25,249 bases of DNA from IMG/VR virus record IMGVR_UViG_3300046011_000635, positions 1 through 25,249 of that record; one strand, 5' to 3'. Position 1 is the first letter of the stretch, and each line of letters opens with the position of its first letter. Under the pieces are notes generated by a model that ran no database searches, had not been told where the DNA came from, and saw only the letters and a list, made by a program, of their open reading frames with translations. The position numbers and the translations under genes are program-made. This DNA is from a virus. Positions 20,879 through 25,249 of this stretch are shown here, one piece after another.

Positions 20879-21115
20879 TTAAAAGTAATTTAATCCAGTT
20901 TTCTTAACCGTTTCCATGTGTTCTTCTATAATCTCATTGATGAATTTTCTTTCGGAATTAGACATGTTAAGGATGTCTTGGTAACTAGCACCACCGCGAA
21001 GATGCCAAGCCATGGATAATGCTGATTTTTTAATGCCCCCGACTTCTGTTTCCATACTTTTAATTAACTTCTCAACCTCATCGGGGGTTGCGTTTAGAAG
21101 CCTTAGCCGAAAAAA
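20879..21115 (-). CDS. Frameshift-encoded C-terminal extension of gp26 (gp51-position reading frame)
   Basis: In the -1 frame relative to gp26 an open frame runs from the slippery site to the TAA at 20881-20879, adding 76 residues that begin RLRLLNATPDEVEKLIKSME and end with ETVKKTGLNYF. The central LSMAWHLRGGASYQDILNMS followed by SERKFINEIIEE looks like a conserved helical domain that I associate with a small ORF after gp26 in marine T4-like phages. There is no ATG, GTG or TTG before codon 19 of this frame; an ATG at 21055-21053 would give only 58 residues and would skip the DEVEKLIKS part. In T4 the gene after 26 is 51, a baseplate hub assembly factor, so a gp51-like role is possible by position. 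A fused product would have 349 residues. Confidence 0.65.
   Translation of the reverse strand, partial: FFRLRLLNATPDEVEKLIKSMETEVGGIKKSALSMAWHLRGGASYQDILNMSNSERKFINEIIEEHMETVKKTGLNYF
21036..21090 (-). promoter_or_regulatory. Possible frameshift-stimulating structure (hairpin or pseudoknot)
   Basis: On the minus strand CAACC (21090-21086) pairs with GGTTG (21077-21073) around an 8-base loop. The CCCGA in and beside that loop (21085-21081) is complementary to TCGGG downstream (21042-21038), allowing a pseudoknot; without stem 1 the pair extends to seven, CCCCCGA/TCGGGGG. The spacer from the slippery site is about 18 bases, longer than the usual 5-9, so its effect is uncertain. Confidence 0.35.
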
Positions 21116-21927
21116 TCGCTAGCGTTCAATGTGAAGGGTTGTTTATATTCATGGCTGCATCCGGCGCATTGAATATCTAATGGTTTTAATTCTGTGCTTG
21201 CTTTGAGATTAGTATTATAATCTCTCATGGTTTCATACATGCCAGCATCACAATTACGTAGGAAATCTAAAATAAAATCTTTCTCACGCACAACACCATT
21301 GGGGGTTTGGATATATTCTATTGATTTTGAAATCAATTGCATGGTTATATCAGTGATGCTTTTGATAGCTACTTGTGTTGCAGCTATTTTTTGCTTTTCA
21401 TCTTGAATCTTTTCAATCTCAGCAAAACTCTTTTGAACATCAAATTGACCCAATGCCGCTTCATTCATCTCGGCATAAGTCATTGGTTTAAATTTTATGG
21501 ATAAATTATTAATTTCTAATTTTTGATCGTAGTTACCCTGTTTTAAAGTTTGTAAAACATTGACTAAATTTACTCCATACGTATTTGTTTCTTTACATGA
21601 AGGACATGATGTAGTGACATCTAAGGTAGTATCGCCGCCGGCAGCTCTTATACCGATCAATATTGCGTCTAGATCGCTTGTTGTCAATCTCCAAGGATCT
21701 TTAATATTTGGTAAGCAACTTTTAATCACATCCGCAACAGCATTGCCGTTGAACAATGCATCAGGCGTTCTTAATGATATTTCATCGATTGCTGTCATAG
21801 GATAAACCGGCAATTCGCCGTTTTCCGGCATGTCTATCACATCAGGGCTATAGTCTTTACCCCTACTAGGTAGATTGATAAACACGGCTGGTCTACGGAA
21901 GTACTGTTTTAGCGGATTATTGTCCAT
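21103..21927 (-). CDS. gp26: Baseplate hub subunit gp26
   Basis: 274 residues. The motifs VFINLPSRGKDYSPDVIDMP, then PVYPMTAIDEISLRTPDALF, NGNAVADVIKSCLPNIKDPW and LTTSDLDAILIGIRAAGGDT are those of the T4-type baseplate protein family that includes gp26. Two CxxC pairs (C108/C111 and C254/C257) could hold a zinc ion. T4 gp26 is 208 residues. The ribosome site AAGAGG lies about 9 bases before the ATG. The gene ends with codons GAT TTT TTC GGC TAA, which contain a slippery T TTT TTC heptamer two codons before the stop. It is divergent from the tape-measure gene and shares a promoter region with it. In T4 the 26-51 pair also lies close to the tape measure gene 29. Confidence 0.82.
   Translation of the reverse strand: MDNNPLKQYFRRPAVFINLPSRGKDYSPDVIDMPENGELPVYPMTAIDEISLRTPDALFNGNAVADVIKSCLPNIKDPWRLTTSDLDAILIGIRAAGGDTTLDVTTSCPSCKETNTYGVNLVNVLQTLKQGNYDQKLEINNLSIKFKPMTYAEMNEAALGQFDVQKSFAEIEKIQDEKQKIAATQVAIKSITDITMQLISKSIEYIQTPNGVVREKDFILDFLRNCDAGMYETMRDYNTNLKASTELKPLDIQCAGCSHEYKQPFTLNASDFFG
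21109..21115 (-). promoter_or_regulatory. Programmed -1 frameshift site T TTT TTC in gp26
   Basis: The minus strand from 21115 to 21109 reads TTTTTTC, and in the gp26 frame this splits as T TTT TTC, matching X XXY YYZ. After slippage by -1 the next codon is CGG and the frame stays open for 76 codons, while the 0 frame stops one codon (GGC) later. The match of heptamer phase, stop position and open frame is the main evidence. Confidence 0.65.
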
Positions 21928-22014: not shown

Positions 22015-25000
22015 ATGACACCCGAACAATTACAAGACCTGTCCAATAATCTAAACGATCTACGTGCAGCTATTAATCAAATAGCAGGTGCAAGTAGCAT
22101 CATGGCTAATAGTCTTAACAGAACTATACAGGGTTTAGGACAAGTCGATCCTACATTTAGACGAGCGGCATCAGCATTAGACGAAAGTGTTAATAGAACA
22201 AGACAAGCAGGAAATGCTATTCAACAAGAACAGCAGGTTGCAGCTCAAACAATTAGAAGAAATGCACAAGATCAAGAAAATGCTACTAGGGGTTATGTAG
22301 CATCTTTAAGAACTTTAACTAATGGACTAACATCGGCAACAGCTAGTTTGCAAAATCTATCTGGGATAGCGCAAATTGCAGGTAATTCAGTTTCTTCATT
22401 AGGTATAAAAATGGGCGCTGCCGGGGATAAAGCTGATGCGCTTGGAAGATTTGTTACCGGTATCGGCGAGAATATTTTTAAACAAGCGGAAGCATATAAC
22501 GCTTTAAAAAACTCATTGCAACGAATGGGTGCTGCAGGAGAACATACAGCATCTAGCCTATACCAGTACGGTAAAGCAGCAGGATTATACAGTGAAACAT
22601 TAGGTTACATGCTCGGCCCAATAAAAGCATTGGGTACTAATATAATATCATTAGGAAGAGGCGCTGGCGATGCTCAAAGAGCATTCATGGAGATGCTCCA
22701 AGTCAGCGATGACCAAAGAGCAATGTTTGCTCGTTTGGGCATGTTTCAAGAAGATTTAATTGCTAGACAAGCAGATTATGTAGCACAACAACAAGCAGCT
22801 GGTATCAGTATCAGGAACATGAATACTGATATGCAAAGTTTGCGTAAAGCAAGCCTTGACTATGTAAGAAGTTTATATGACTTGAGTGCATTGACCGGTC
22901 AATCAATCGAACAAGAAAGAGAAAAACAAAAAGAGGCTGTTTACGAACGTAGATTAATGACCGAAATGTTCGCTAAACAAGCGGAAGCTGCTCGCTTAAG
23001 AAGAGAAGCCGATCAAGCTGAAGCGTTAGGCACTCCGGAAGGTTTAGAAGAGGCAAGAAGAAAACGCGGTGAAGCGGCAGCGTTAGATAGACAAGTTCAG
23101 GCACAAGAAAAATTAATAAGATCATTAAGCGAATTGCCAAAAGAAATGCGCGATGGCATTATCGGGGCAATGACAACAGGCGGTATAGTTAATGAAGGTG
23201 CAGAAGTACTAGCACGCCAGGGTGTTCTTGATGACATCTTAGAAATAACAAGTAACCTAAAAGAACGTGCGGAAAGAGGAGAGCAAGTCGATCCAGAAAT
23301 GGAAGCCCAACGCATTATGCAATTGATCGGTGAGGGTCAAGCACAAAATGCTGAAGTATTAAAAAATGCATTGTTAGTAGGCGGCGACGAACTTGCTAGA
23401 AAATTAGGTTTTAGTATCAAAGATATAGAATTTGCTAGAGATCAATTAGGTAGAGATCGCCCAGCAGAACTTGAAGCAGCCAGACGTAGAAGAGAAGCAG
23501 CAGAAGCCGGAGGTCAAGATTTAGTTTCTGATACTGCCGCAAGATTGCAAGGACTTTCTATCGCATTAAATCAAGCCGGAGAAGAACTAACTGCTGCAAC
23601 TAGTCCCTTTATTCAAGGATTTAATTTAGTAACAAATGAATCTGTAAGAACAGCAGGTGCAATACAATCTTTAGGAGAAGCTGCTGTTGATGCTATTGGT
23701 AAAATAGCCTCAACAACACAGGGTTTGTTACAAAATGCAGCAAATGCAAGTGATAAATTTTCAGGAATACCAACTCAAGGAGGTAGCAGTACAATAGGAC
23801 GTAGACTCCCTGTTGATCAACAGGGTACAACACCTTCGCCTGTCGCACCAGTTGCAGCCCCTACCACACAAGAAACACAACCTCCTACTACACCAGCTGA
23901 TACTACGCAGGTTGCGCCTACTGCCACAGCTACACCTGTACCTACATATGCCCCTATCACTGTTGAAACAAATTTAGGAAATAGAATCACATTAAATGCA
24001 GGTGCTGTTGGAAAAATTGCAGGACAAATTAAAGAAGGAAAAAATAGAGACCAATTAAGAGGGGAAATAAGAAAATTAATTGGTAACAACACAAATTATA
24101 ATCAAGCAACTATTGATAAAATTATTGATAAAGTTGCTGAAGTTGCAAATTTACCTAAACCAGCTGGAAGTGCCGCAACAGCTACACCGACTACACCTGC
24201 AGCACAAGTTCCGACACAAGTACCAGAAGCTGTGCCGACTACACCTGTAACGGAAGTTCCGACACAAGTACCAGAAGCTGTGCCGACTACACCTGTAACG
24301 GAAGTTCCGACACAAGTACCTACAGTAGCACCGTCTACTACCAATGCTCCACCGGTAACTGGTGCAAGACCTGAACCAGCTACAGTTGCTAGACCTAGCC
24401 CAACTGCTACAGGTACACAAAGACCTCGAGTAACAACACCTGCCGCCGGCACTGTTGCACCTAGAGATTTAGACGTATCAACTCCTAAAGTAATTGATAC
24501 TGTAAGCTCAGAACAACGTAATTGGCAAAATCGTGAAAATGAGTTACGTAATCGTTTAAGCGATATGGTGCGTAATAAAAAATCAATCACTAAAGATCAA
24601 GCAAATCAGATTTTAGATTACTATGATACATTAAAAGATAAGCCAGGTGCTATACCAACTGTTGATCAAATTATTCAGAATTCTGGAGCGTTGCGTAGAC
24701 CTACTACGGCGACAACAGCGCCAGTCAATACAAATGGCGCCCGCCCAGAAGCAGCACCTAGAGTACAGGCAAATTTACGTAGACCTAGAGAGGTAACTCC
24801 GCCGGCTGATTTAGCAAGAAGAGCTGGATATAGAGAAACATTACCTGGTAATGTTAATACTTCATTACCTGAAATGATAGAAGCAGGATTGCCACCAAGC
24901 GCATTACGCGGCAGCGGTATACAAGAACCGTTAGGGGGCGACAGAGATCCAGGAACATTTGACACGCACGGCGAAGGTGCTCAAATCGATCCAAGATTAT

Positions 25001-25249
25001 TGACTGCTGTAAATCAATTAGTAGCAATGTCAGGAAGCGGAGCTGCTCCGTTTAAGATTTCGCATTTGACAGCACTTAATGACTATTATCATAACGTGAA
25101 TTTACCGGGTAGTCAACATACAAAAGGTAGAGCGGTAGACTTTAAATTAGACTTGCCGCCGGGACAAGAAGCACCTAGCGAAAGACAATTTCAAGAACTA
25201 TCAAATTTCATGAAAGGAACTTTGGGTTTTGATGTCGTAATCAACGATC
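22015..25249 (+). CDS. Putative tape measure protein with M15-type peptidase motif, C-terminus cut by the window edge
   Basis: Open from the ATG at 22015 to the window end, 1078 residues visible. The first 580 residues are mostly helical and Ala/Gln-rich (for example LGYMLGPIKALGTNIISLGR, then coiled-coil EAARLRREADQAEALGTPEG), as in tail tape measure proteins (T4 gp29), which set tail length and pass through the tube. Pro/Thr-rich linkers follow (about 590-645 and 720-800), the second with a 16-residue tandem repeat. Near the end, SQHTKGRAVDF (1033-1043) matches the SxHxxGxAxD zinc motif of M15 D-Ala-D-Ala peptidases (H1035, D1042), suggesting a wall-degrading domain delivered with the tail tube. 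The second metal histidine would lie beyond the window. No good Shine-Dalgarno precedes the ATG. A virion-associated endolysin fusion is the alternative. Confidence 0.7.
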   Translation, partial: MTPEQLQDLSNNLNDLRAAINQIAGASSIMANSLNRTIQGLGQVDPTFRRAASALDESVNRTRQAGNAIQQEQQVAAQTIRRNAQDQENATRGYVASLRTLTNGLTSATASLQNLSGIAQIAGNSVSSLGIKMGAAGDKADALGRFVTGIGENIFKQAEAYNALKNSLQRMGAAGEHTASSLYQYGKAAGLYSETLGYMLGPIKALGTNIISLGRGAGDAQRAFMEMLQVSDDQRAMFARLGMFQEDLIARQADYVAQQQAAGISIRNMNTDMQSLRKASLDYVRSLYDLSALTGQSIEQEREKQKEAVYERRLMTEMFAKQAEAARLRREADQAEALGTPEGLEEARRKRGEAAALDRQVQAQEKLIRSLSELPKEMRDGIIGAMTTGGIVNEGAEVLARQGVLDDILEITSNLKERAERGEQVDPEMEAQRIMQLIGEGQAQNAEVLKNALLVGGDELARKLGFSIKDIEFARDQLGRDRPAELEAARRRREAAEAGGQDLVSDTAARLQGLSIALNQAGEELTAATSPFIQGFNLVTNESVRTAGAIQSLGEAAVDAIGKIASTTQGLLQNAANASDKFSGIPTQGGSSTIGRRLPVDQQGTTPSPVAPVAAPTTQETQPPTTPADTTQVAPTATATPVPTYAPITVETNLGNRITLNAGAVGKIAGQIKEGKNRDQLRGEIRKLIGNNTNYNQATIDKIIDKVAEVANLPKPAGSAATATPTTPAAQVPTQVPEAVPTTPVTEVPTQVPEAVPTTPVTEVPTQVPTVAPSTTNAPPVTGARPEPATVARPSPTATGTQRPRVTTPAAGTVAPRDLDVSTPKVIDTVSSEQRNWQNRENELRNRLSDMVRNKKSITKDQANQILDYYDTLKDKPGAIPTVDQIIQNSGALRRPTTATTAPVNTNGARPEAAPRVQANLRRPREVTPPADLARRAGYRETLPGNVNTSLPEMIEAGLPPSALRGSGIQEPLGGDRDPGTFDTHGEGAQIDPRLLTAVNQLVAMSGSGAAPFKISHLTALNDYYHNVNLPGSQHTKGRAVDFKLDLPPGQEAPSERQFQELSNFMKGTLGFDVVIND
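24208..24320 (+). repeat. 48-bp tandem repeat in the tape measure linker
   Basis: A 48-base unit beginning GTTCCGACACAAGTACCAGA occurs at 24208-24255 and, identically, at 24256-24303, then a partial third copy of about 17 bases at 24304-24320. It encodes VPTQVPEAVPTTPVTE. The identity of the copies suggests a recent slippage expansion that keeps frame. Confidence 0.9.

Follow-up and report, generated by a model that had tools for sequence, protein, structure and literature searches.

The closest described counterparts of the locus presented here are the tail assembly chaperones (TACs) of tailed phages, prototyped by lambda gpG and gpGT, in which a short product and a long fusion arise from one gene by a −1 slip near its 3′ end. 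An older review set T4 apart from the phages with frameshifted tail chaperones ("except T4"; PMC5009743). According to two papers that cite Vladimirov, Gautam & Davidson 2022 (PMC10885494 and PMC12846349), T4-type gp26 and gp51 have already been published as TACs, and poly-T slippery sequences have been reported in the TAC-N genes of T4-like phages; going by those citations, the idea offered in a preliminary description of this DNA was already in print as far as the gp26/gp51 assignment is concerned. A TAC locus of Vandenendeviridae and Andersonviridae (PMC12846349) likewise combines a TAC-N gene, a poly-T shift site, and a −1 frame open for >200 bp; it has a GTTTTT motif and belongs to other phage families, the likeness being one of motif and layout. 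In cyanophages and KVP40, the loci annotated as gp26 and "gp51" have an in-phase TTTTTTC and a −1 frame domain, and this gp51 has been called a separate gene because an ATG of the −1 frame lies directly past the gp26 stop.

The window (the whole stretch of DNA analyzed, 25,249 nucleotides of an ~25-kb virus record) has all the features of its gp26 locus on the minus strand (Table 1). The layout is that of lambda G/GT, with a short product, a potential −1 slip near the 3′ end, a long fusion, and an adjoining candidate tape measure gene; it differs in that the heptamer is TTTTTTC and the tape measure candidate is divergent rather than downstream. The gp26 product matches PF12322 with 61 bits and phrog_150 with 71 bits. 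Its gene (minus strand, 21927-21103) ends GAT TTT TTC GGC TAA, so that the in-phase heptamer, which conforms to the X_XXY_YYZ pattern, had been described correctly to the base. Translation confirmed that the −1 frame entered after a slip (RLRLLNATPDEVEKLIKSMETEVGGIKKSALSMAWHLRGGASYQDILNMS...LNYF) is open for 76 sense codons, ending at 20879, and has no start in codons 1 to 18, the first ATG, GTG, or TTG being codon 19. Since TTTTTTC by itself turns up repeatedly in the window (5 copies observed versus 8.7 expected), the evidence lies in its position, phase, and conservation. Two CxxC pairs in gp26 (C108/C111 and C254/C257), near-invariant in a 79-sequence alignment, suggest a metal site.

Table 1. 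Features of the gp26 locus and its neighbor (window positions)
Feature	Position	Strand	Basis
gp26, 0-frame product, short form, TAC-N-like	21103..21927	-	274 aa; PF12322 T4_baseplate, phrog_150 baseplate hub
Slippery heptamer T_TTT_TTC, in gp26 phase	21109..21115	-	conserved without exception (80/80 unique loci of the clade, 60/60 from cyanophage relatives)
0-frame stop TAA, second codon past the shift site	21103..21105	-	read from sequence
−1 frame extension, 76 codons and stop; predicted four-helix C-terminal domain of the long form (TAC-NC-like)	20879..21109	-	translation, codon-position signature, predicted fold
Stem 1, 5′ arm GCUUCU, starting 7 nt past the heptamer	21096..21101	-	pairing and covariation
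Stem 1, 3′ arm AGAAGU	21067..21072	-	95.8% of cells paired; covariation above 500/500 shuffles
Stem 2 (candidate pseudoknot), 5′ arm CCCCCGAU, inside the stem 1 loop	21080..21087	-	partner-swap test
Stem 2 (candidate pseudoknot), 3′ arm GUCGGGGG	21036..21043	-	partner-swap test
Divergent large neighbor, candidate tape measure protein, running off the window	22015..25248	+	weak PHROG tape-measure matches

To place the locus, relatives were drawn from IMG/VR viral contigs by using the window protein, jumbo-phage alignments, cyanophage gp26, and T4 gp26 as queries. The closest named relatives of the window phage are the jumbo phages Atu_ph07, 121Q, RaK2, and PA5oct rather than common marine T4-like phages, although marine cyanophages do have the same site. 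An in-phase T TTT TTC at the gp26 end was found in all 80 unique loci of the window's clade, in all 60 unique loci of the cyanophage relatives, and in 26 of the 31 unique matches of a more distant jumbo-phage set. When the clade was reduced to clusters with <80% nucleotide identity to each other over the last 240 nt, 62/62 kept it; the corresponding log10 P of −50.6 overstates the significance, as it treats the sequences as independent, and the conservation is nevertheless far beyond chance. The five distant matches that lack the heptamer (L275, L278, L279, L280, and L283) are weak (E values of 3 × 10−9 to 2 × 10−6) and may not be orthologs. Among named phages, it is present in Atu_ph07, 121Q, RaK2, Paride, SCTP-2, Vibrio 2.275.O, and Phosso, as well as in P-SSM2, S-PM2, KVP40, and PhiW-14; Cr30 and phiM12 have the variant T TTT TTT. 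A sequencing error in the T run is ruled out because the run recurs unchanged in independent contigs from numerous samples. In Salmonella phage Vi01 (L048), a gp26 homolog without the heptamer is followed by an overlapping −1 open reading frame (ORF).

Comparison of the region downstream of the stop shows a coding pattern of evolution in the −1 frame. The −1 ORF ends exactly 224 nt beyond the 0-frame stop in 77 of the 80 unique clade loci, the remaining two frames of the same region contain on average 7.4 and 7.7 stops, and differences between 48 moderately diverged pairs are distributed over −1-frame codon positions 1, 2, and 3 as 378, 156, and 970. The translated alignment has conserved residues in the domain (FFR, RLL, Tyr45, and Glu55-Arg56). 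Aligning gp26 ends, as the preliminary description had advised, thus revealed a conserved heptamer and −1 open frame, with early starts missing from most clade clusters: the first ATG typically lies at codons 19 to 37. Of the 61 clade clusters counted, 9 have an early ATG (−1-frame codon 2 or 3), and in cyanophages an ATG is always present at codon 4; in these, an extra independent product may be made.

We modeled gp26 and the −1 domain with AlphaFold2 as two separate chains. The former was predicted with a pLDDT of 89 and the latter as a fold of four helices with a pLDDT of 90. The best viral match of the gp26 model in Foldseek was a T4-like baseplate hub assembly protein (E = 6.8 × 10−25). 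Matches to this model in BFVD also included proteins of ~300 to 550 aa from the further jumbo phages RSF1, RP12, PaBG, phiRSL1, and Special G, which, judging from the predicted structures, may be unrecognized chaperones. Sequence and fold searches of the PDB recovered no solved structure matching gp26 or the −1 domain model. P0001, searched alone, recovered no Pfam or PHROGs family and just three records in the phage collection.

The RNA downstream of the heptamer contains a candidate stimulator. The preliminary description had noted a CCCCCGA/TCGGGGG pairing and a possible pseudoknot; this pairing can form, but a more widely conserved stem (GCTTCT/AGAAGT; stem 1) had been overlooked. In 59 clade sequences without gaps, stem 1 comprises six pairs, with 95.8% of the cells paired versus 37 to 65% when the partner is slid by 1 to 3 columns, and its covariation score was reached by 0/500 shuffles, a control that ignores the relatedness of the sequences. 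Both covarying pairs are at largely synonymous −1-frame positions: in one, codon position 3 of Arg/Lys/Thr pairs with codon position 1 of Leu; in the other, position 1 of a Leu codon pairs with position 3 of Lys or Gln. In some members, the stem is long and perfect or nearly so (e.g., L197 and L218), and a stem-loop occurs at the same place in P-SSM2 (z = −4.1), S-PM2 (z = −6.7), and Atu_ph07 (z = −6.7). The 7-nt spacing of stem 1 is within the 5 to 9 nt expected of −1 frameshift sites. In the window, CCCCCGAT (21087-21080) is complementary to GTCGGGGG (21043-21036), and this stem 2, together with stem 1, has the geometry of an H-type pseudoknot. Good pairing in the stem 2 register was seen in 23 of 61 sequences versus 12.0 ± 2.4 with partners swapped (0/2,000 swaps), and control windows in the same test were not significant. 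A broad partner-swap test that let the stem 1 loop pair anywhere downstream gave no significant excess (12.9 versus 12.45 ± 0.28), and the stem 2 P value is optimistic because the register was picked after viewing that result. These comparisons suggest that a pseudoknot can form in about one-third of the lineages, the window included. RNAalifold returned no consensus structure for the whole alignment, and therefore one named stem was tested instead; the minimum-energy fold of the window alone has stem 2 without stem 1 (z = −0.7). The case for a stimulator rests on comparison.

The relationship to T4 is clarified by the two T4 genes themselves. Genes 26 and 51 of T4 are separate and divergently transcribed; their products both match PF12322 and phrog_150, with gp51 aligning almost up to the last positions of the phrog_150 profile, and are similar to each other, by which they are paralogs. 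The claim that gp26/gp51 and the window locus are the same device is supported as regards a probable chaperone pair, but T4 26 and 51 are divergent and not an adjacent pair that lost its shift site. Nor is gp51 the counterpart of the small downstream domain: in sequence comparisons, it resembles the whole frameshift fusion. A profile of jumbo and cyanophage fusions matches gp51-type C termini (e.g., phiAS4 gp51, residues 224 to 255; i-E = 3 × 10−5). When the −1 domain alone was compared with the T4 gp51 C terminus in hhalign, the cyanophage version gave an E value of 1.7 × 10−10 and the jumbo version a modest pairwise E value of 1.1 × 10−4 with a probability of 29%; the cyanophage C domain is therefore closer to T4 gp51. 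Searching the 3′-terminal 80 codons of genes 26 and 51 in T4 and six other Straboviridae loci gave no in-phase TTTTTT. Hence, in T4-type phages, two separate genes go with the absence of the shift site. What T4 and the window share is the PF12322/phrog_150 family and short and long forms with a common N-terminal domain; they differ in that T4 has two divergent paralogous genes without a heptamer, whereas the window has one gene with a shift site, and window-type loci mostly lack an independent start and have a covarying stem or pseudoknot. Cyanophage and KVP40 loci differ from the window in the ATG directly past the gp26 stop, and P-SSM2 and S-PM2 resemble it in the stem-loop directly downstream of the shift site. 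gp26 and its fusion are best read as a predicted TAC-N/TAC-NC pair.

The likely client of these chaperones is the large divergent neighbor of gp26, an ORF that abuts it in nearly all clade loci. Its PHROG tape-measure matches are weak in the window (E values of 2 × 10−4 to 1 × 10−3), and L004 and L012 gave comparable ones. At ~23950 to 24600, the sequence is of low complexity and includes tandem VPTTPVTEVPTQVPEA-type repeats, and the later part of this neighbor varies among relatives, being lysozyme-like in L006, tail lysin-like in L012, and endolysin-like in L022.

Taken together, we put at roughly 0.9 the probability that −1 programmed ribosomal frameshifting lets gene 26 yield a pair of tail assembly chaperones from a single start. 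The fusion of gp26 to the downstream domain by a G/GT-type shift, as first suggested, is strongly supported by conservation, the coding signature, covariation, and the T4-type control. A quite improbable alternative is that the −1 frame constitutes a small gene of its own, translated from its own start by coupling at the gp26 stop. It has been annotated in this way, as gp51 in cyanophages and KVP40 and as hypothetical proteins in 121Q and Phosso, and the ATG at codon 4 in all cyanophages and at codon 2 or 3 in the minority of clade clusters would suit it. However, the window and most clusters offer no ATG until codons 19 to 37, which is inside the folded domain; the stretch from the shift site to the first ATG is itself conserved in the −1 frame (FFR.RLL), and an independent gene gives no reason for an invariant heptamer.

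Equally improbable is transcriptional slippage, whereby RNA polymerase would add one U on the T6 run and generate mixed mRNAs. The homopolymer run and the longer T runs of the relatives Cr30 and phiM12 speak for it, but the surveyed clades have TTTTTTC in ribosomal phase and never longer, and a covarying stem spaced 7 nt from the heptamer is arranged as expected of a ribosomal stimulator. That the heptamer is a mere by-product of a conserved Asp-Phe-Phe C terminus combined with codon bias is the most remote of the alternatives, even though the surveyed frameshift clades keep Phe-Phe without exception and the T4 gp26 C terminus likewise reads ..EFFELL. Given the amino acids, the codon match is expected in ~0.15 per sequence, as opposed to the 62/62 clusters found. 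The site codons GAT, TTT, and TTC each have a frequency of 1.00 among rows with that residue, compared with mostly 0.4 to 0.8 for upstream codons. Elsewhere in the same clade genes, there is 1 other in-phase TTTTTTC in 24,520 codon steps, the 16 other Phe-Phe pairs use the heptamer coding once, and T4-type gp26 ends can retain Phe without it. In this comparison, protein constraint fails to explain the codon invariance.

Under ribosomal frameshifting, most ribosomes would end at the TAA and yield gp26, the short form (TAC-N). A minority would be held by the stem-loop, a probable pseudoknot in the window lineage, 7 nt past T TTT TTC and slip by −1, both tRNA-Phe re-pairing on TTT; these would read 76 further codons to give gp26 joined to the four-helix C-terminal domain, the long form (TAC-NC). 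If the parallel with lambda G/GT holds, the role of the short form is to coat the tape measure protein, probably the product of 22015-25248, and that of the long form is to bring in subunits of the tail tube or baseplate hub. T4 would obtain equivalent products from its paralogous genes 26 (short) and 51 (long). The site, its phase, the coding −1 frame, the stem, the paralogy, and the lack of the heptamer in T4-type phages come from sequence comparison; the slippage itself, its efficiency, and the chaperone role are what we infer. Virion proteomics of RaK2 left four predicted structural proteins undetected; ORF087 (gp26 by position, beside ORF088) was not one of them, and gp26 may hence occur in virions, unlike lambda G. 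We also lean toward the view that the chaperone pair was ancestrally made by frameshifting at TTTTTTC, aided by an RNA stimulator, across the T4 supergroup (here, jumbo phages, cyanophages, and KVP40-like phages), that T4 26/51 is a later duplication freezing both products, and that jumbo lineages tune the ratio by an optional pseudoknot.

Beyond the TAC assignment as described in the citing papers, our analysis adds the jumbo-phage clades that mostly lack an independent start, the covarying RNA stimulator, and the misannotation in 121Q, RaK2, and Atu_ph07; a search of one literature library found no paper combining jumbo phages, tail assembly chaperones, and ribosomal frameshifting. In 121Q (L028; 3837-4046) and in phrog_18291, the −1 domain is kept as a separate truncated family of unassigned function that begins at domain residue 15. 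More generally, the records of 121Q, RaK2, Atu_ph07, Paride, and Phosso split or miss the long chaperone, and proteomic searches of those jumbo phages would therefore not find it. The principle is already known from T4, where two separate genes supply the corresponding pair; a large group of T4-related giant phages very probably makes a second, longer tail-building helper protein by a −1 slip at the end of gene 26.
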